Origin: Clostridia bacterium
GTDB taxonomy: Bacteria; Bacillota; Clostridia; Peptostreptococcales; JAAYPU01
Assembly: GCA_016278615.1 (NCBI GenBank)
Contig: JADQBM010000078.1
Span: 1 to 46,282 of the forward strand
DNA length: 46,282 nt
Direction: 5' to 3'
Within the stretch, counting starts at the first letter, position 1. Each line of letters starts with the position of its first letter. A program made the position numbers and the translations under genes. Positions 6,305 to 44,785 of the stretch are shown here, in pieces. The notes beneath the pieces are model-generated. The model saw only the letters and a program-made list of their open reading frames with translations. It was not told the origin of the DNA and did not search any database.

Positions 6305-6382
6305 TTATTTAAGATTTAAGATTTAGGATTTAAGATTTAAGGTAGATTTTGCTTGTTAACAAAATCCATATTAATAAAGAAG

Positions 6383-6423
6383 GAGTGTGCTTCTATATGT
6401 AGAATTGCATGCTCTCTTTTTTT
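6383..6423 (+). terminator. Intrinsic terminator after the priming transferase
   Basis: GAGTGTGC (6383-6390) pairs with GCATGCTC (6407-6414, two wobbles); the inner TTCTA/TAGAA continues the stem around a TATG loop. A T-tract follows (to 6423). Confidence 0.7.
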
Positions 6424-6492
6424 ACATATGGAGACACACTTATTATACATAAATGTTATAATAAGGAAAAAGGAAAAAGGATAATAGGAGAA

Positions 6493-6858
6493 ATGGAAAT
6501 AAACATTTATGATTATTCGTATAGTTTTGCTTTAAAAATAATTAGAGTCTGTACGCAACTAAATGATCGAAAAGAATTCATTCTTTCAAAGCAATTATTA
6601 CGGTCAGGTACAAGCATTGGTGCGAATTTACGGGAAGCTAAATATGCTCAGAGTAAAAAGGATTTTCTGAACAAAATGAATATTGCATTAAAAGAAGAAT
6701 ATGAAACAGAATATTGGATTGAATTACTTAAAGAATCAAACATATTAGATGAAAGTGATGCAAGAAAATTACTTTCTGATTGCGAGGTAATGCGTAAAAT
6801 ATTGGCTTCAATTGTTAAAACCACAAGAGATAACTTAAATAGTAAAAGTTCTGGGTGA
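6493..6858 (+). CDS. Four-helix bundle protein (23S rRNA intervening-sequence / S23 family)
   Basis: 121 residues matching the small four-helix-bundle family found in 23S rRNA intervening sequences and as free-standing genes. Diagnostic pieces: SFALKIIRVC, SKQLLRSGTSIGANLREAKY, SKKDFLNKMNIALKEEYETEYWIELL and a final helix LLSDCEVMRKILASIVKTT. Such proteins are basic pentamer-forming bundles related in fold to Avd of diversity-generating retroelements; the free-standing members have no settled function. Start set at ATG 6493 behind AGGAG; upstream in-frame codons overlap the terminator of the preceding gene. It lies inside inverted heptamer arms, which suggests it moves with that element. No reverse transcriptase is near. 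Confidence 0.85.
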   Translation: MEINIYDYSYSFALKIIRVCTQLNDRKEFILSKQLLRSGTSIGANLREAKYAQSKKDFLNKMNIALKEEYETEYWIELLKESNILDESDARKLLSDCEVMRKILASIVKTTRDNLNSKSSG

Positions 6859-6873
6859 TCCCAGAACTTTTTT
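6845..6873 (+). terminator. Intrinsic terminator of the four-helix-bundle gene
   Basis: AAAGTTCTGGG (6845-6855) and CCCAGAACTTT (6860-6870) form a perfect 11-bp stem with a TGAT loop and a T-tract. It includes the stop codon of the gene. Confidence 0.85.
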
Positions 6874-6913
6874 CCTTAAATCTTAAATCCTAAATCTTAA
6901 ATCTTAAATAATC

Positions 6914-8948: not shown

Positions 8949-9128
8949 AGATAACATATAAGAGATAACAGATAACAGATAACAGATAATAATTGAGGAT
9001 GGGTTTTTTCGGGCAGGCACAGGGACCAGCCCCTACGTTTTTTTCGGGCAGGTGCGAGACCAGCCCCTACAGATTTATACTTATACCTAATACTTATCCT
9101 TAAACTTAAACTCAAACTTATACTTATT
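8949..9128. repeat. Mosaic intergenic repeat: heptamer arm, two GTAG hairpins, hexamer array
   Basis: The 358-base gap before the dehydratase gene holds an AGATAAC-type heptamer array (about 8949-8990) ending in AATTGAGG. Two GTAG-type GC-rich hairpins in minus orientation follow (9010-9036 and 9045-9070), and then a 6-bp array AAACTT/ATACTT (about 9077-9128). An open frame on the - strand across this region (8891-9277) is made of repeat and is not called as a gene. Confidence 0.7.
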
Positions 9129-11051: not shown

Positions 11052-12314
11052 ATGAAACCCATCAATATTAGCGCAAATAGTTCTTTAATAAGTGAAGAAG
11101 AATTATTTGTGTATGAGGACAGGTTAAAGACAGCACATCAGAGGCTTCATTCAGGGGCAGATGATTATTTAGGTTGGGTAAACCATCCTATGGAATATGA
11201 CCCAAAAGAATTGGAACGAATTATTCAGACAGCTAAAAAGATACGAAGTCAATGCCAGGTTTTTATTATAATTGGTATTGGAGGCTCTTACATAGGCGCT
11301 CGTGCAGCAATAGAAATGTTGAATCACAGTTACTATAATCTATTAGATCAAAACCAACGAAAAGGACCCCAGATTTTTTTCGCGGGAAACAATCTCAGTG
11401 GTACGTATCATAAGGAACTTGTAGACATGGTAAAAGATAAAGAAATATGTGTTTGCGTCATATCAAAATCAGGGACCACGACAGAATCAAATATTGCATT
11501 TTCAATTTTTAAAAAGCTACTGCAAGACAAATATGGGGAAGCAGCTTCTGAAAGGATTTATGTTATTACCGATAAAGAGAAGGGAATTCTAAGAGAAGAA
11601 GTCAATCAGAAAGGTTATACTAATTTTCAAGTACCAGAGGATATTGGTGGGCGGTATTCTGTGCTCACACCTGTTGGCTTATTACCTATTGCTGTATCTG
11701 GAATAGATGTTTTGGAAATGATGAAAGGTGCAGCGGGTGCTTACTCTCAATTTAATCATCCCGATTTAAGAAATCCCTGTTATGAATATGCTGTTATTAG
11801 AAATATTTTATATAATAAAGGAAAAATAATAGAAGTTTTTGAAGTTTACGAGCCTAAACTACAATACTTCGCTGAGTGGCTCAAACAACTCTTTGGAGAA
11901 AGTGAGGGAAAAGAAGGAAAAGGAATATTCCCTACTTATCTTCAGTTCAGTGCAGACTTGCATTCCATGGGGCAGTTTCTGCAGGAAGGCAATCAATGTT
12001 TTTTTGAAACAGTCCTAAATGTTCAAAGTTTCGAAAGTGATATAATTGTTCCAGAGGGTTCTTTGGATACATTTAAGGGCAAAAAAATGAGTTATATTAA
12101 TTCTAAGGCTATGGAGGGAGTTCTCCTTGCACATATGGAAGATGATATCCCAAATATTCGCATCAACATTCCTGAACTATCGCCTTATTACTTTGGACAG
12201 ATGGTCTATTTTTTCGAAAAATCCTGCGCTATAAGCGCATACCTCCTAGACGTCAACCCCTTCAACCAACCTGGAGTGGAGAAGTATAAGAGGAATATGA
12301 GGAAACTAATATAA
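11052..12314 (+). CDS. pgi: Glucose-6-phosphate isomerase
   Basis: Interconverts glucose-6-phosphate and fructose-6-phosphate in the cytosol. Motifs: IIGIGGSYIGARA (SIS fold), VISKSGTTTES for phosphate binding, EDIGGRYSVLTPVGLLP (PGI signature), GQFLQEGNQCFFETV with the catalytic glutamate, and PFNQPGVEKYKRNM with the catalytic lysine. At 420 aa it is slightly shorter than the usual ~450 of Firmicutes enzymes, mainly at the N-terminus, but all catalytic blocks are present. ATG at 11052 lies nine bases after AAAGGAG; the TTG just before it is not needed. Its place next to the nucleotide-sugar genes fits supply of hexose phosphates for glycan synthesis. Confidence 0.95.
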   Translation: MKPINISANSSLISEEELFVYEDRLKTAHQRLHSGADDYLGWVNHPMEYDPKELERIIQTAKKIRSQCQVFIIIGIGGSYIGARAAIEMLNHSYYNLLDQNQRKGPQIFFAGNNLSGTYHKELVDMVKDKEICVCVISKSGTTTESNIAFSIFKKLLQDKYGEAASERIYVITDKEKGILREEVNQKGYTNFQVPEDIGGRYSVLTPVGLLPIAVSGIDVLEMMKGAAGAYSQFNHPDLRNPCYEYAVIRNILYNKGKIIEVFEVYEPKLQYFAEWLKQLFGESEGKEGKGIFPTYLQFSADLHSMGQFLQEGNQCFFETVLNVQSFESDIIVPEGSLDTFKGKKMSYINSKAMEGVLLAHMEDDIPNIRINIPELSPYYFGQMVYFFEKSCAISAYLLDVNPFNQPGVEKYKRNMRKLI

Positions 12315-12316
12315 TA

Positions 12317-12487
12317 AGAGACAGATAACAGATAACAGATAATAGATAACAGTTAAGGTAGATTTTACTACATAAAATCAATAATTATGTTTGAAAGTCA
12401 TCTTTATAGAAAACAGAAAAATAGCTTGACATTACAAGCTGTTTTTTACCTTAACTATTATCTATTATCTGTTATCTATTATCTTTA
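12317..12487. repeat. Heptamer inverted-repeat element (AGATAAC type)
   Basis: The left arm (12317-12350) is AGATAAC/AGATAAT in tandem, then AGTTAAGG (12351-12358) and the hairpin GATTTTA/TAAAATC (12361-12379). The right half mirrors it: CCTTAACT (12449-12456) then TATTATC/TGTTATC units to 12487. The interior contains the terminator of pgi. No coding sequence lies inside. Confidence 0.8.
12423..12447 (+). terminator. Intrinsic terminator after pgi
   Basis: AGCTTG (12423-12428) and CAAGCT (12435-12440) with loop ACATTA, then GTTTTTT. It lies inside the repeat element, so the element appears to supply the terminator. Confidence 0.65.
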
Positions 12488-12594
12488 TAATTTTATAGCC
12501 TAAGCGTTTTCAAGTATTCCCGAAACTATATCATTAATAAGTACTTGTATTTTCACTCATTTATTGTAAAAATTATTAGAAGGAATAAAAGGAC

Positions 12595-13773: not shown

Positions 13774-13948
13774 GAGATAAAAAAAAGATAATAGATAGGA
13801 AAAGATAGATAAAAGATAAGAGATAACAGATAAGAGTTAAGGTAGAAAAAATCCTATATAGGATTTTTTCCTGTTTACTAAAATATTCAGTTTTGCATGC
13901 AAAACTCTCCATAACTATTATCTATTATCTATTATCTCTTATCTTTCT
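13774..13948. repeat. Heptamer inverted-repeat element between convergent genes
   Basis: The left module is AGATAAN units ending in AGTTAAGG (13835-13842), followed by the strong hairpin AAAAAATCC/GGATTTTTT (about 13846-13869). The right module is hairpin GTTTTGC/GCAAAAC (13890-13905), then CCATAACT (13909-13916), then TATTATC units to about 13948. The two hairpins can act as terminators for the convergent genes on either side. Confidence 0.8.
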
Positions 13949-15159: not shown

Positions 15160-15380
15160 ACCTTCTGCTTCTACCTCTACTCTTACTTACCCTTAATCTT
15201 CAACTTCTACTTACACTTTTCGGGCAGGCACAGGACCAGCCCCTACAGAGGACAACCGCAAGGGTCGTCCCTACATATCTCTAATCTCTAATCCCTAATC
15301 TCTATTCCCTAATCTCCAATCTCCAATCTCTAATCCCTAATCCCATATCTTTTATCTGTTATCTGTTATCTCTTATCTAT
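15160..15380. repeat. Mosaic repeat region before the COG2426 gene
   Basis: The 343-base gap holds, in order: a degenerate 6-bp array CTTCTA/CTTACT (about 15160-15218); two GTAG-type hairpins in minus orientation (15221-15246 and 15250-15274, two different sequence families); then a heptamer array TAATCTC/TAATCCC/CAATCTC (about 15277-15345) passing into TTTATCT/GTTATCT units to about 15380. Confidence 0.7.
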
Positions 15381-15964: not shown

Positions 15965-16215
15965 AAAGGATAAGTGGAAGTTTAAGTTTAAGTGTAAGTA
16001 GATGTTTAAGTGTAAGTGTAAGTAAAAGTGGAAGTATAAGTGGAAGAGTAAATCCGTAGGGGCTGGCCTCGCGCCTGCCCGTAAAAGGTAAGAAATAAGT
16101 GTAAGTACATGATTTATTTAAGATTTTGGATTTAGGATTTAGGATTGAATGAAGAAATTTGATTTTTTTTCAAATTTCCTCGATAATTCTTCATTCTTCA
16201 TTATTAATTCTTAAT
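15965..16215. repeat. Mosaic repeat region between the COG2426 gene and the lipoprotein gene
   Basis: The 327-base gap contains a 6-bp array AAGTGT/AAGTTT/AAGTGG (about 15972-16050) and a GTAG hairpin (16056-16081, + orientation). Next comes a heptamer array GGATTTA (about 16120-16146) leading to the hairpin GAAATTTGA/TCAAATTTC, and a right arm of ATTCTTC units (about 16187-16215). Left and right arms use different heptamers here. Confidence 0.65.
16056..16081 (+). repeat. GTAG-type REP hairpin
   Basis: GTAG followed by the imperfect GC-rich palindrome GGGCTGGC...GCCTGCCC. The same sequence with small changes occurs at 9010, 9045 and 15221 (minus) and at 40092, 40232, 40302 and 43181 (plus). 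GTAG at the foot of a hairpin is the hallmark of REP sequences processed by RAYT enzymes. Confidence 0.75.
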
Positions 16216-17201: not shown

Positions 17202-17218
17202 AGATTAACAAAGCTTCT

Positions 17219-17280
17219 GTAGGGTCGGGTCCCGTGCCCGACCGAAACACTCTTTGTAGGGTCGGGTCCTGTACCCGACC
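17219..17280. repeat. Two tandem GTAG-type REP hairpins (second family)
   Basis: GTAG followed by GGTCGGG...CCCGACC, copies at 17219-17243 and 17256-17280, each trailed by GAAACAC. The stem is a perfect 7 bp. This family shares only the GTAG foot and hairpin layout with the GGGCTGG family. The pair lies directly after the lipoprotein gene and could end its transcript. Confidence 0.75.
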
Positions 17281-17299
17281 GAAACACCAATCAAGCTTG

Positions 17300-18748: not shown

Positions 18749-18763
18749 AGGATAACTTTATAA

Positions 18764-18824
18764 AGATAATAGATAACAGATAATAGATAATAATTTAGGA
18801 AGGTTTTGTAGAGGCAAAACCTTC
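18764..18824. repeat. Half heptamer element serving as metK terminator
   Basis: A single module: AGATAAT/AGATAAC units (18764-18792), AATTTAGG box, then GAAGGTTTTG (18799-18808) pairing perfectly with CAAAACCTTC (18815-18824) and followed by TTTTG. The module therefore doubles as an intrinsic terminator of metK. Confidence 0.75.
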
Positions 18825-18886
18825 TTTTGTTGTGATATAATAGAATGGCTTAAATGTTTATTTGCTAGAAAAGAGGGTCTTCTGCC

Positions 18887-27481: not shown

Positions 27482-27547
27482 TAAATGAATAATGAACAAT
27501 GAACAATGAATAATTAAGGTGGAAATTTTGCGAGGAGCAAAATTTCT
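27482..27547. repeat. Half heptamer element inside the mrp operon (AATGAAC type)
   Basis: Units AATGAAT/AATGAAC (about 27485-27512), box AATTAAGG (27512-27519), then a perfect 10-bp stem GAAATTTTGC/GCAAAATTTC (27522-27531 with 27537-27546). It lies between two mrp genes. In the operon direction no T-tract follows the stem, so it should not terminate the mrp transcript; on the + strand TTTATTT follows. Confidence 0.75.
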
Positions 27548-30388: not shown

Positions 30389-30580
30389 GAGATAAGAGAT
30401 AAGAGATAATAGTTATGGTTGTAAATTTGCTTAGCAAAGCAAATTTCCTTCAATTTTTATATACTTAATGAAGATTTTGTTCCAAAATCATTCCTAAACT
30501 GTTATCTCTTATCTATTATCTTTTATCTTTCTTTTATCTTTCTTTTATCTTTCTTTTATCTTTCTTTCTTTTATCTTTCC
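30389..30580. repeat. Heptamer inverted-repeat element inserted in the mrp operon
   Basis: The left arm is AGATAAG units (30389-30410), box AGTTATGG (30411-30418), hairpin around AAATTTGC/GCAAATTT. The right half contains GATTTTG/CAAAATC, CCTAAACT (30493-30500) and TTATCT units that drift into a CTTTTATCTTT array to about 30580. The right arm covers the last codons and stop of mrpG. Confidence 0.78.
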
Positions 30581-33952: not shown

Positions 33953-34170
33953 TATTTAAGATTTAAGATTTAGGATTTAAGATTTAGGATTAGGATCTAA
34001 AATCGGAAGATTTAAGATGTAAGATCTAGGGTCTAAGATATTGAAATCAAAGATAGATTTAACATTACGAAAATCTCTATTAATAATGTGAATCACTGAT
34101 ATTGCTTAACTTTTTCTAGTATTATTCTTTTCTCCATCAATTTTAAATCTTAAATCTTAAATCTTAAATA
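33953..34170. repeat. Heptamer inverted-repeat element before lysC (TTTAAGA type)
   Basis: The 430-base gap between the divergent activator and aspartokinase genes holds TTTAAGA/TTTAGGA/TCTAAGA units (33953-34044) with some irregular ones, an inner GATTT/AAATC pair (about 34053-34075), and an inverted right arm TCTTAAA (34141-34170). The remaining DNA to 34314 carries the lysC promoter region. Confidence 0.7.
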
Positions 34171-38757: not shown

Positions 38758-38909
38758 AAGATAGATAACAGATAATAGATAAGAGATAAGAGTTAAGGAT
38801 GATTTTGTTTCACAAAATCCACATTTCATTTATTATTAATAGAGATTGTAGTTTTGCCAATGCAAAACTTTCCTAAACTGTTATCTGTTATCTATTATCT
38901 GTTATCTTA
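38758..38909. repeat. Heptamer inverted-repeat element between secA and prfB
   Basis: A complete, well-formed copy. Left: AGATAAC/AGATAAT units, box AGTTAAGG (38791-38798), stem GATTTTG/CAAAATC (38801-38819). Right: stem GTTTTGC/GCAAAAC (about 38851-38867), box CCTAAACT (38872-38879), TGTTATC/TATTATC units to 38909. The two halves are inverted copies of the same module, like paired REPs in a BIME. Confidence 0.85.
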
Positions 38910-40048: not shown

Positions 40049-40370
40049 ATAAGTGTAAGTAATAAAGAAGTTGAAGTGTAAGTTTAAGTATGTAGGGGCT
40101 GGCCTCCCGCCTGCCCGCAAGAGGTAAGTATAAGTTGAAGTGTAAGCAATAAAGAAGTTGAAGTGTAAGTAAAAGTGTAAGTTTAAGTTTAAATAATTGA
40201 GAAATTGAAGTGTAAGCATAAGAACAAACCTGTAGGGGCTGGCCTCGCGCCTGCCCGCAAGAGATAAGTATAAGTTGAAGTGTGAGTTCAAGCCTAAGTA
40301 TGTAGGGGCTGGCCTCGCGCCTGCCCGCAAGAGATAAGTATAAATTGAAGTGTGAGTAAAGATACAAGTC
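40049..40370. repeat. Hexamer array with three GTAG hairpins
   Basis: The 580-base gap after prfB begins with 6-bp units AAGTGT/AAGTTT/AAGTAT/AAGTTG. It is interrupted three times by a GTAG hairpin (40092-40117, 40232-40257, 40302-40327), each followed by CAAGAGRTAAGTATAA. The composite unit (hairpin plus about 50 bases of hexamers) is itself duplicated. Open frames on the - strand here are repeat products and are not genes. Confidence 0.75.
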
Positions 40371-41061: not shown

Positions 41062-41345
41062 TGAGATAAAAAATGACAGATAAAAGATAATAGATAACAG
41101 ATAAGAGTTAAGAGTTAAGGTTGATTTTGTGCCAAAATCTTCATTATATGTAGGTAAAGAGAAATTACTTGTAACCTCTGACCCGTTATCTAAAAATCCT
41201 CTATTGTAATATCAAAATCAAGATTTAATTATGATATAATATATTGTATCTAGTATCTAGTATAAGCAGATTTCAAATAATTGGAGTTTTGCGATAGCAA
41301 AACCACCTTAACTGTTATCTGTTATCTATTATCTTTTATCTATTA
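41062..41345. repeat. Heptamer inverted-repeat element between SRP RNA and dnaX
   Basis: The left arm has AGATAAA/AGATAAT/AGATAAC units, AGTTAAGAGTTAAGG (box doubled), stem GATTTTG/CAAAATC (about 41131-41147). The right part has GTTTTGC/GCAAAAC (about 41286-41302), CCTTAACT (41307-41314) and TTATCT units to 41345. The 135-base middle contains TGATATAAT (41232-41240), a possible extended -10 that could serve dnaX. Confidence 0.78.
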
Positions 41346-41378: not shown

Positions 41379-42986
41379 GTGTCATATAAAGCAATATACA
41401 GACAGTGGCGACCAAAGAATTTTGATGAGATGGTCGGGCAAGAGCATATTACTAAAATATTAATCAATCAAATTCAAATGAATCAAACTGGGCATGCCTA
41501 CCTTTTTTGCGGAACAAGAGGAACGGGGAAAACATCTGCTGCTAAAATTTTAGCAAAAGGTGTGAATTGTCTTTCAACGAATCAGAAGCCTTGTGGAGAA
41601 TGTGATAATTGCAAAAGCATTCAGGATGAAACCTTTATGGATGTCATTGAAATGGATGCTGCTTCCAACAATGGAGTAGATAATATCAGAGACCTAAGAG
41701 AGAGTATCAAATATCCCCCTGCTAAGGGGAAATACAAGGTATATATCATAGACGAGGTTCATATGCTTTCCACAGGTGCCTTTAATGCGCTTCTGAAAAC
41801 TTTAGAAGAACCTCCCTCGTATATAAAATTCATTCTTGCTACCACAGAGGTACATAAACTGCCGGCTACCATTCTTTCAAGATGTCAAAGATTTGATTTT
41901 AGAAGAATTACCGAGCAGGAAATGATGAAAAGAATGAAATACATTTGTACCCATATCCACATTGATATGGAAGAGAGTGCCCTGATGCTCATTGCTAAAA
42001 ACGCGGATGGTTCTGTAAGAGATGCTTTAAGCATATTGGACCAGTGCTTGGCTATCGGGGAAGGGACCATAACCCGGGAGGAAGTTATAAATGTTTTAGG
42101 GACGGCTGATGATGAATTCATGTTAACCCTTACGGATAGAATTGCAGAAAGAGACACTTTAAATGCGATATCTTTAATTCATGAAATCATGACTCAGGGA
42201 AAAGATGTTCAACAATTCATGAAGGACTGGATTTATCACTATAGAAATTTATTAATGAGTAAAATCACTAAAGATTTAGAATCCATTGTCTCTATGTCTC
42301 CAGAAAACATAGAAAGGCTCAAAGCTCAAGGTCAGAAGCTAAGCATGCCTTCAATAAATAATGCAATTATGGAGCTCTCTAAAACTTCTGCTGAAGCTAA
42401 GTGGTCTTCTCAGCCAAAAATACTATTGGAAATGGCAATTGTTAAATTATCTGCACCTGAGATGAATACTTCACTGGATGGATTACTTGAAAGAATTACT
42501 ATATTGGAAGAAACAATTAGAACCGGTCACCAGCTAAAATCCACAATAAGTGATGAAAAAGCATCTGAAAAACCTGTGAAAAAAGAAAAGGGCATAGAAT
42601 ATCCTAAAGTTGAAAATCAGGATACCCATTTTCAATTGAAAGAAAACAATAAAGACTATCAAAAATTATGGGATAAAATTATTGCGGATGCACGAAAGGA
42701 AAGACCTTCTTTAACAATGCTTAATAATGGGATTATTATAAAATCAATAGATGAAAATACCTTCTTGCTCCATGCGGAAAGTGAGTCAAAGAAAGAATAT
42801 CTGAACAGAAATAAAGATTTAATAGAAGAATTATTTGAAAAACATGCTTTGAGAAGATTAAAGCTTCAATGCGTTACTGGGTTTGCGAAGAGTCAGATAA
42901 AAGAGGACAACAACAATGACGATGAAATAAAAAAGGAGTTAGAATCTATTTTTGGAAGGGAAAACATAAGTATAGTTGAAGAGTGA
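41379..42986 (+). CDS. dnaX: DNA polymerase III subunits gamma/tau (clamp loader)
   Basis: ATPase that loads the sliding clamp. MSYKAIYRQWRPKNFDEMVGQEHI is the family start; Walker A GTRGTGKT at 45-52; zinc-binding cysteines in CLSTNQKPCGECDNCKSI; Walker B IIDEVHML; sensor region LSRCQRFDFRR. Domain III ends near residue 370, and a charged linker leads to the tau C-terminal domain (YQKLWDKIIADARKERPSL). 535 aa. GTG start, seven bases after GGGAGG. No A-rich slippery site of the E. coli AAAAAAG type stands out in the linker; frameshift-made gamma cannot be excluded. Confidence 0.95.
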   Translation: MSYKAIYRQWRPKNFDEMVGQEHITKILINQIQMNQTGHAYLFCGTRGTGKTSAAKILAKGVNCLSTNQKPCGECDNCKSIQDETFMDVIEMDAASNNGVDNIRDLRESIKYPPAKGKYKVYIIDEVHMLSTGAFNALLKTLEEPPSYIKFILATTEVHKLPATILSRCQRFDFRRITEQEMMKRMKYICTHIHIDMEESALMLIAKNADGSVRDALSILDQCLAIGEGTITREEVINVLGTADDEFMLTLTDRIAERDTLNAISLIHEIMTQGKDVQQFMKDWIYHYRNLLMSKITKDLESIVSMSPENIERLKAQGQKLSMPSINNAIMELSKTSAEAKWSSQPKILLEMAIVKLSAPEMNTSLDGLLERITILEETIRTGHQLKSTISDEKASEKPVKKEKGIEYPKVENQDTHFQLKENNKDYQKLWDKIIADARKERPSLTMLNNGIIIKSIDENTFLLHAESESKKEYLNRNKDLIEELFEKHALRRLKLQCVTGFAKSQIKEDNNNDDEIKKELESIFGRENISIVEE

Positions 42987-43144: not shown

Positions 43145-43145
43145 T

Positions 43146-43206
43146 GTAGGGACGACCCTTGCGGTTGTCCTTATGAGAATGTAGGGGCTGGTCCTGTGCC
43201 TGCCCG
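43146..43206 (+). repeat. Two GTAG-type REP hairpins (two families)
   Basis: 43146-43170: GTAG then GGACGACC...GGTTGTCC; 43181-43206: GTAG then GGGCTGG...CCTGCCC. The same pair in the opposite order and strand is found at 15221-15274, so the pair behaves as a composite unit. Confidence 0.75.
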
Positions 43207-43257
43207 AACCAAGCTGATAAATGAAAGATAAATTATAAATTATTGGGAGGTAGGAAA

Positions 43258-43635: not shown

Positions 43636-43877
43636 ACAAATAAGAGATAAAAGAGATAAGAGATAAGAGATAAGAGATAAAAGAGATAAGAGATAAGAGA
43701 TAAAAGAGATAAGAGATAAGAGATAAGAGATAACAGAGATAAGAGATAAGAGATAAGAGATAACAGAGATAAGAGATAAGAGATAACAGATAAGAGATAA
43801 AAGATAAGAGATAAAAGATAAGAGATAAAAGATAATAGATAATAGTTATGGTCAGAAATTTTGGATTAACCAAAATT
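43636..43877. repeat. Expanded heptamer array with 23-bp higher-order period, single module
   Basis: The 345-base gap holds about 200 bases of AGATAAG/AGATAAA/AGATAAC. In the middle the units are grouped as 9+7+7 bases (AGAGATAAG-AGATAAG-AGATAAC), a 23-bp super-repeat present several times in a row. The array ends with AGATAAT x2, AGTTATGG and the stem AAATTTTGG/CCAAAATTT (about 43857-43879), the same box and hairpin as other modules. No right half is present. Confidence 0.85.
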
Positions 43878-43944
43878 TCTACCTTTTATTTTTTATTAGA
43901 TCATACATCATAAACCATACATCTTATTTAATTGAGGTAATGAA

Positions 43945-44546: not shown

Positions 44547-44785
44547 TAATGAATAATGAATAATAACATTAGTAATTAATAATGAACAATGAATAATGAA
44601 TAATGAATAATGAAGGAAAAGACTTTGTACTTGATTGAGGCTGCAAAGTCTTATTATTTTAGATTAGATTAGGAAAATGATGATAGTCATCATTTTTATA
44701 ATAAAATAGAAGATTTTGCATAGCAAAATCCTCCATCATTATTCATTGTTCATTGTTCATTATTCATTATTCATTATTCATTCAT
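44547..44785. repeat. Heptamer inverted-repeat element after recR (AATGAAT/AATGAAC type)
   Basis: Left arm AATGAAT/AATGAAC units to about 44612, right arm TATTCAT/TGTTCAT from about 44738 to 44785, with GATTTTGC/GCAAAATC (about 44713-44730) next to the right arm. The left half contains the recR terminator. Confidence 0.78.
44619..44660 (+). terminator. Intrinsic terminator after recR
   Basis: AAGACTTTG (44619-44627) pairs with CAAAGTCTT (44644-44652), followed by ATTATTTT. It lies inside the heptamer element. Confidence 0.65.

Follow-up and report, generated by a model that had tools for sequence, protein, structure and literature searches.

Tandem repeats of 7-nt units are known from cyanobacteria as short heptameric repeats (STRR), and small dispersed repeats (SDR) are reportedly embedded in the heptameric repeats of Nostoc, in work attributed to Elhai and co-workers and said to date from 2008. 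By this description, the SDR resemble the repeats treated below as small structured elements within heptamer arrays, and STRR resemble them in their tandem 7-nt units. Tandem heptamers, mostly intergenic and often mixed or inverted, are also described in two papers, namely GGGAATC of Xanthomonas and GGGGA(C/T)T of Nostoc (Rehm 2015, PMC4692102) and TAACTGA of Beggiatoaceae, Cyanobacteria and Bacteroidetes (MacGregor 2015, PMC4679880). The former says that a detailed literature on heptameric repeats is lacking, and the latter, on the horizontal spread of TAACTGA, that 'no mechanism is evident'. In the text searched, neither PMC4692102 nor PMC4679880 mentions S23 or 'four helix'.

The one paper joining heptamer repeats to S23 that we found in the open PMC literature concerns the 23S rRNA IVS of Coxiella (Warrier et al. 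2016, PMC4990558). According to this paper, the IVS carries an S23 gene, its inverted terminal repeats pair into a long stem, and beside the gene stand three copies of GACAGAT plus a degenerate copy, with the copy number varying between strains; the IVS is excised from the transcript by RNase III, and a selfish or mobile origin has been proposed. The same paper describes the S23 family as being without known function. Avd of diversity-generating retroelements shares a homologous fold with S23 (PMC10053308); Avd adjoins a reverse transcriptase (RT), whereas S23 elements appear free of RT dependence as judged by co-occurrence. Two further systems invite comparison: REP/BIME elements with RAYT, which likewise combine a short box by a hairpin, inverted pairs, intergenic position and dispersal, and MITEs, which are short and non-coding, have inverted ends, are copied as units and are likely to be mobilised in trans.

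Modules of the window and their spread in the genome

An earlier note on the window (the whole stretch of DNA analysed here, 46,282 nt) had claimed that at least ten gaps share one architecture, namely a heptamer array, a box and a hairpin. The listed gaps do hold these parts, the inverted pairs and single modules are present with coordinates that we judged good (Table 1), and the family is real. The pairs had been said to lie around 50-150 bases; that at 6305-6909 does not, and encloses a gene. For the inverted pair at 12317-12490, folding gives a long stem of -65.2 kcal/mol (mean of shuffles, -22.6; z = -12.8), and the pair thus has the terminal inverted repeats with a long stem that characterise an IVS. 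As for the claim that several copies supply intrinsic terminators, seven module hairpins score as terminator-like; the total for the region equalled the shuffled expectation in one terminator scan (8 observed vs 8.0) and was 22 vs 12.5 in the other. The window also holds 21-nt repeats at 2516-2695, within a small coiled-coil ORF (2471-2887).

Table 1. Repeat modules, S23 gene and REPs in the window
Feature	Position	Strand	Details
Left terminal module of S23-coding element	6305..6369	+	(ATTTAAG)n array, box ATTTAAGG, hairpin GATTTTG/CAAAATC
S23 gene (PF05635, 23S_rRNA_IVP / S23 four-helix-bundle) between inverted modules	6409..6858	+	149 aa, E 1.6e-27; PDB 2rld, E 5.2e-30
Right terminal module of S23-coding element, inverted	6845..6909	-	hairpin AAAAGTTCTGGG, box ATTTAAGG, ATTTAAG array
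AGATAAC array beside GTAG-type REPs	8949..8989	+	no own hairpin found
Short non-coding element	12311..12488	.	inverted AGATAAC arrays, boxes AGTTAAGG at 12351(+) and 12456(-), two hairpins
Short element	13774..13946	.	inverted AGATAAx arrays, boxes at 13835(+) and 13916(-)
Single module	18760..18826	+	box AATTTAGG, hairpin AAGGTTTTG
Single module	27484..27547	+	AATGAAC array, box AATTAAGG, hairpin GAAATTTTGC
Short element	30389..30578	.	boxes at 30411(+) and 30500(-)
Degenerate element	33954..34169	.	inverted ATTTAAG arrays, no clear box or hairpin
Short element, secA-prfB gap	38758..38907	.	boxes at 38791(+) and 38879(-)
Short element, upstream of ORF 41379-42986	41064..41345	.	boxes at 41113(+) and 41313(-); interior 185 nt
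Single module, ybaB-recR gap	43640..43880	+	long array, about 28 units
Short element with AATGAAC arrays	44547..44782	.	boxes AATGAAGG/AATGATGG, read by eye
GTAG-type REPs, separate from modules	9004-9070, 15217-15275, 16055-16087, 17218-17287, 40091-40333, 43145-43212		TGTAGGGGCTGGCC..., GTAGGGACGACCC...

The earlier note had regarded the box as independent of the heptamer, and had itself weighed the opposite, that the box is only heptamer drift. The latter turned out to be partly so. The box continues the register of the array as its final unit, with GG added, and its spelling follows the heptamer: AGATAAx gives AGTTAAGG, AATTAAG gives AATTAAGG, ATTTAAG gives ATTTAAGG and AATGAAx gives AATGAAGG. 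Because the box stays in the register of the array, takes its spelling and ends in GG, we treat box and heptamer as one unit.

The modules are no product of chance: the source genome (3.5 Mb, 128 contigs) holds 57 occurrences of the pattern AGTTAAGGN{3,4}TTTTG and two of the reversed pattern. A genome scan with a module model, as the earlier note had proposed, was carried out with a covariance model of box and hairpin from 31 modules, heptamers left out. With 150 candidates scored per genome, it matched at least 108 sites (E ≤ 0.01) in the source genome. Two relatives from the same family had at least 18 and at least 26 such sites, and among the candidates scored in 37 other members of the order there was none. 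Enrichment thus reaches beyond the window, and the outcome that the earlier note held against itself, a family confined to the window, did not occur. In a hold-out set of 40 stretches outside the model, around mostly lower-ranking matches, 58 modules were recognised by pattern (none in two of the stretches). A 7-nt periodic array lay directly 5' of the box in 53 of these 58 modules, and arrays with periods of 5, 6, 8 or 9 in none. An inverted pair within 350 nt was seen in 17 hold-out stretches (20 plus/minus combinations, with three elements counted twice). Between paired boxes, 37 of 47 interiors, taken from the window and 89 own-genome stretches with a few overlapping, were 57-98 nt long.

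Five elements on four contigs (L015, L199, L223, L248 and L249) are homologous through both hairpins and the interior. Outside the elements, three comparisons of the flanks gave matches of only 14-15 nt, as expected where heptamers run on. As these related interiors lie at unrelated sites, the elements have been copied as units, like MITEs in being short non-coding copies with inverted ends. They differ from MITEs in that their terminal repeats are tandem heptamers of differing sequence, and no transposase with matching ends is established. No remnant of S23 was detected in the 89 own-genome stretches around modules (tblastn, E ≤ 1e-3), and descent of the short elements from coding elements therefore rests on their shared ends. 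All in all, the module family is a palindromic repeat that is spread genome-wide and is probably mobile. In two stretches (L232 and L240), box-and-hairpin modules lack heptamers and are preceded instead by the shared sequence GATTTGAGC(C/T)AGGGCTTCAA.

Comparison of the same gaps in related genera suggests recurrent insertion or replacement of units. In the ybaB-recR gap, the source genome and two family relatives (L158/L161/L166) each carry arrays, with different heptamers; among 29 loci with both genes (30 fetched), only these three have an array, and the other 26 gaps measure about 2-118 nt. The same three genomes again carry different elements in the secA-prfB gap (L276/L277/L278). No element was marked there in 10 other genomes with secA adjacent; one gap (L280) shows a degenerate inverted repeat by eye, and one locus of this comparison (L288) has no secA nearby. 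The three genomes probably belong to Anaerovoracaceae, given that one S23 locus of a family relative is identical in sequence to that of the GTDB MAG Anaerovorax odorimutans BM5_bin.11.

S23 genes between heptamer arrays

The gene enclosed by the modules at 6305-6909 encodes an S23 protein, and the source genome has four such PF05635 genes. All four lie between heptamer arrays on inspection, three of them with arrays on both sides by a strict score, and box and hairpin are clear at three. Each gene has a different unit (ATTTAAG, AATGAAC, GAGGTTA or GTTCGAG). The ATTTAAG and AATGAAC ends of short elements match those of the genome's S23 elements; AGATAAC, the commonest heptamer here, flanks none of the four genes. 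The PF05635 gene, a trait of the IVS, is thus present in the element at 6305-6909 and in three other coding copies, and the short pairs show no trace of S23. In the two family relatives, five of six PF05635 matches were viewed, all five with arrays on both sides. At one locus (L271), an S23 element with ATGAAAG, box and hairpin is nested inside an inverted pair of AACTAAG arrays.

The association extends across phyla. GTDB contigs were scanned with an alignment of two of the genome's own S23 proteins, which gave 166 relatives, and 80 loci were kept from Bacteroidota, Campylobacterota, Clostridia, Ignavibacteria, Gammaproteobacteria, Cloacimonadota and others. By a lenient test, period-7 arrays lay within about 300 nt of S23 upstream at 46 loci, downstream at 56, on either side at 62 and on both sides at 40, in a sample that may lean toward heptamers because the query proteins are themselves heptamer-flanked; control gaps of the same loci had such arrays in 23 of 122 cases. 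Other periods between 4 and 20, 14 excepted, occurred at no more than one of the 80 loci. By the strict score, arrays were found on either side at 48/80 loci and on both sides at 27/80, against 17 of 146 control gaps from the named, class and plasmid loci. Shuffled flanks gave no arrays in either test. Where both arrays were present (46 of 113 loci), the inverted match was the better one at 42, the direct match at two, and two were ties.

The heptamer also varies with the protein. In 96 loci with an array, among 126, the match between units rose from 3.9 of 7 positions below 25% protein identity to 5.3 above 60% (reversed-orientation control, 3.0 to 3.6). The Mantel correlation was 0.42 (0 of 2000 permutations as high) with kinship and host lineage left in, and common descent and host lineage contribute to it. 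Read toward the gene, the units are purine-rich and C-poor (A 43%, C 5%, G 28%, T 25%).

The strict score found no array at 32 of the 80 named loci and 24 of 29 class loci. At 21 array-poor Clostridia loci, we counted 4.8 short upstream hairpins per 300 nt, a few of them probably tRNA or terminators, vs 1.5 in shuffled sequence and 2.9 in 16 control gaps (p = 0.008). Many S23 genes of gut Clostridia thus have hairpins in place of heptamers, several of them as rows with a constant spacer of 7-9 nt (AGCTAAA, ATATCGA, ATTTCAT), and heptamer-less S23 genes with spaced hairpin rows upstream were noted at L060, L067, L084, L097, L108, L110, L128, L131, L133 and L136. Such rows may represent the box-and-hairpin part without heptamers.

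Box and hairpin appeared to be bound to lineage. The earlier note had seen in them the functional part, with the heptamers as an addition; inverted heptamer arrays are what the window family shares with S23 genes across phyla, and the exact box and hairpin were seen only within the family. A hairpin followed the array in 12 of 35 Clostridia arrays (1.4 in shuffled sequence), 3 of 24 cyanobacterial arrays (1.15) and 15 of 106 others (4.1). With frequencies differing in this way between lineages, we rejected box and hairpin as a universal part.

Plasmids provided both further S23 loci and empty sites. S23 matches were found in 25 plasmid records, almost all cyanobacterial, and none in phages with the one protein tried. 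All 14 plasmid loci that were read have 7-nt repeats on both sides by eye, and 10 of 14 have arrays on either side by the strict score. When the two sides were compared, the inverted match was better in 11 and the direct match in three (L142, L145 and L152); in L152 the score of the right array rests on 11 nt, and to the eye this array is a mirror image. S23 occupies the nrdB-nrdA gap and, twice, the cas6-cas4 gap; other copies adjoin conjugation and integrase genes or stand between genes of unknown function. One of the two copies in cas6-cas4 gaps (L142) has very long direct arrays, AAAAGCT upstream and AAAAGCC downstream.

In one Nostoc strain, two plasmids share a row of genes, with flanks 91-99% identical, but have S23 in different gaps of it, so that each provides the empty site of the other. 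We compared these two with six further Nostoc plasmids, several of the same strain; a Halotia plasmid was too different at the gap. In three of the eight, the first gap is filled by the same insert, which measures 420 nt in L152 and L185 and 602 nt in L186, where the annotated S23 is short; in the other five (L146, L187, L188, L189 and L190) this gap measures 3 nt and has no heptamers. The second gap is occupied in L146 by a different S23 with different heptamers, and measures -1 to 3 nt in the other seven. Given these filled and heptamer-free empty sites, arrays and gene arrive together. Short target duplications at the Nostoc elements are possible. The cas6-cas4 gap was set aside as a clean empty site; the nearest relative, with flanks 98-99% identical, holds an unrelated 245-nt insert. 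That insert, in a Dolichospermum plasmid (L192, 1537-1783), has inverted GTTGGGTT-like ends.

On a plasmid of Azospirillum lipoferum 4B (L154), an S23-like frame with inverted heptamers around it lies inside a 23S rRNA gene (Rfam RF02541). The window contains no 23S rRNA match, and its copies are intergenic; we therefore call the window family a relative of the IVS and not an IVS. Unlike the Coxiella IVS, the window elements have arrays on both sides as well as box and hairpin, and most copies in the source genome are gene-less.

Alternative explanations

The likeness to REP/BIME elements drawn by the earlier note holds for the inverted pairs and the box beside a hairpin, and is weakly supported at best with one of six Y1 genes between heptamer arrays. 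If RAYT (Y1 transposase) moved the modules, the box would act as a tetranucleotide-like guide, the hairpin as recognition stem and the inverted pair as a BIME. The conserved box directly 5' of a variable hairpin, the inverted pairs and the six Y1_Tnp genes of the source genome fit this proposal. So does the co-occurrence of Y1 genes with S23 (42 of 59 S23 genomes vs 76 of 137 without S23; OR 2.0, p = 0.056, with five genomes having a weak RT-side match dropped and genome size and kinship uncorrected), albeit 17 of the 59 S23 genomes have no Y1 gene. One Y1 gene (L026, 1188-1943), together with its GTAG REPs, is enclosed by an AATTAAG array that ends in AATTAAGG and, downstream, by a hairpin with an AATGAAT-type array; this arrangement may reflect the nesting of insertions, or else a real link in the form of a relative that carries RAYT. 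The other five Y1 genes have no heptamer array within 500 nt, two of them at contig ends (with 223 and 96 nt of upstream sequence for L023 and L024), and L021-L025 gave no match to the module model. L025 and L026 carry beside the gene GTAG-type REPs, a separate family that also occurs in the window. In REPs, a GTAG/GGAG-like tetranucleotide stands at the foot of a GC-rich hairpin, whereas the window modules have the box TTAAGG, then 2-3 nt, then an AT-rich GATTTTG stem. REP/BIME elements differ further in the 7-nt arrays found here and in the placement between arrays of four of four S23 genes vs one of six Y1 genes. RAYT as the driver is thereby weakened, L026 being the exception, and we consider it quite unlikely. 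Some GTAG-type REPs of the window stand in 6-nt arrays (AAGTGT), and similar REPs flank the RAYT genes of L025 and L026. The window itself has a Y1 transposase-like (RAYT) gene fused to a DnaA C-terminal-type helix-turn-helix (PF08299) at 239-1138, with neither REPs nor modules in the available flanks (223 nt upstream).

Alternatively, S23 might spread by retrotransposition with an RT in trans, as its homologue Avd suggests. In structure comparison PF05635 and Avd are homologous (PMC10053308), weak PF05635 matches stand beside RT genes in some class genomes, and the source genome has one RT. That only RVT_1 gene lies on contig C63, and the S23 genes lie on C37, C77 and C101. Against an RT partner, RVT_1 was found in 29 of 64 PF05635 genomes and in 56 of 132 without PF05635 (OR 1.12, p = 0.76), or in 24/59 and 61/137 after dropping five genomes with only a weak RT-side match (OR 0.85, p = 0.64). 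An RT partner was thus rejected for want of co-occurrence in the 196 genomes with or without these five, and this route is unlikely. If the arrays instead arose by polymerase slippage and S23 inserted into them, they would be the target and not the ends of an element. Lone arrays without S23 are indeed common in the same genomes, as in the control gaps of the lenient test, and one cas6-cas4 gap (L194) has just an array at the position that S23 occupies in relatives. Had S23 landed in an array, however, the arrays flanking it should be direct, whereas 42 of 46 are inverted; moreover, the Nostoc empty sites are free of arrays, and arrays of other periods are nearly absent, which makes slippage very unlikely. 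Finally, arrays and hairpins might be immobile regulatory repeats kept as translation or termination signals. Some hairpins do score as terminators, and arrays that are purine-rich and C-poor toward the gene may be ribosome-binding sites. This reading is at odds with elements that are present or absent as units, with the dispersal of whole copies and with the finding that three related genera have different elements in one and the same gap, and we regard it as highly improbable.

A putative S23 element and its relatives

The window repeats look like stripped-down copies of a tiny S23 mobile element found in many phyla, and the best reading of the family is that of S23-less relatives of IVS-type S23 elements, the heptamer arrays being the element ends. 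Two points are well supported, namely that S23 is linked to mirror-image heptamers and that, in Nostoc plasmids, both arrive as a unit. We consider it likely, with some reserve, that a compact selfish element of the S23 / 23S-rRNA IVS kind has these modules as its ends and the gene-less pairs as its MITE-like non-coding relatives. The full form would run from a tandem heptamer array through box and hairpin (in Clostridia and Campylobacterota) and the S23 (PF05635) gene to the mirror image of these parts, and the gene-less inverted pairs of the source genome would be MITE-comparable relatives copied as units.

As a mechanism, we propose that an S23 ring reads the heptamers. The Xanthomonas S23 protein is described as a homopentamer (PMC4990558), and the solved PF05635 homologues 2gsc and 2rld have five chains per entry. 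S23 might recognise the heptamer arrays of its own element and join the two ends, with roughly one heptamer per subunit, given that arrays have mostly 4-5 units. Array length was 3.5-4.5 units in 53 and 4.5-5.5 in 25 of 104 arrays, which agrees with one unit per subunit but is no proof of it, because the detector cuts at about 3.5-4 units. Cutting and joining would fall to host or trans-acting enzymes, and the gene-less elements could use S23 in trans; the short forms are likely to be mobilised in trans. S23 is not known to have catalytic activity, which counts against the S23 element as an explanation, as do the S23 loci with no array, the direct arrays of L142, L145 and L152, the lack of S23 remnants around the modules, the absence of AGATAAC from the flanks of the genome's S23 genes and the Y1 gene of L026 between arrays. 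Neither RT nor Y1 co-occurrence yielded a partner enzyme (12 of 59 S23 genomes have neither gene). A wider reading, which we put forward tentatively and at somewhat short of even chances, would make S23 rings the recognition factor of bacteria-wide minimal elements with heptamer ends that move without a recognised transposase, so that heptamers in general, 23S IVSs and the window family would be of one kind. It is equally tentative that gene-less, rRNA-borne and coding copies are forms of one element, with one unit read per subunit.

The over-representation of heptamers in bacteria has had no agreed cause so far, and the tie to S23, based on mirror-image arrays, presence or absence as a unit and covariation of unit and protein, offers a testable one. 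This tie would give a widespread protein family a role, and would bring 23S rRNA IVSs and intergenic repeats into a single frame.
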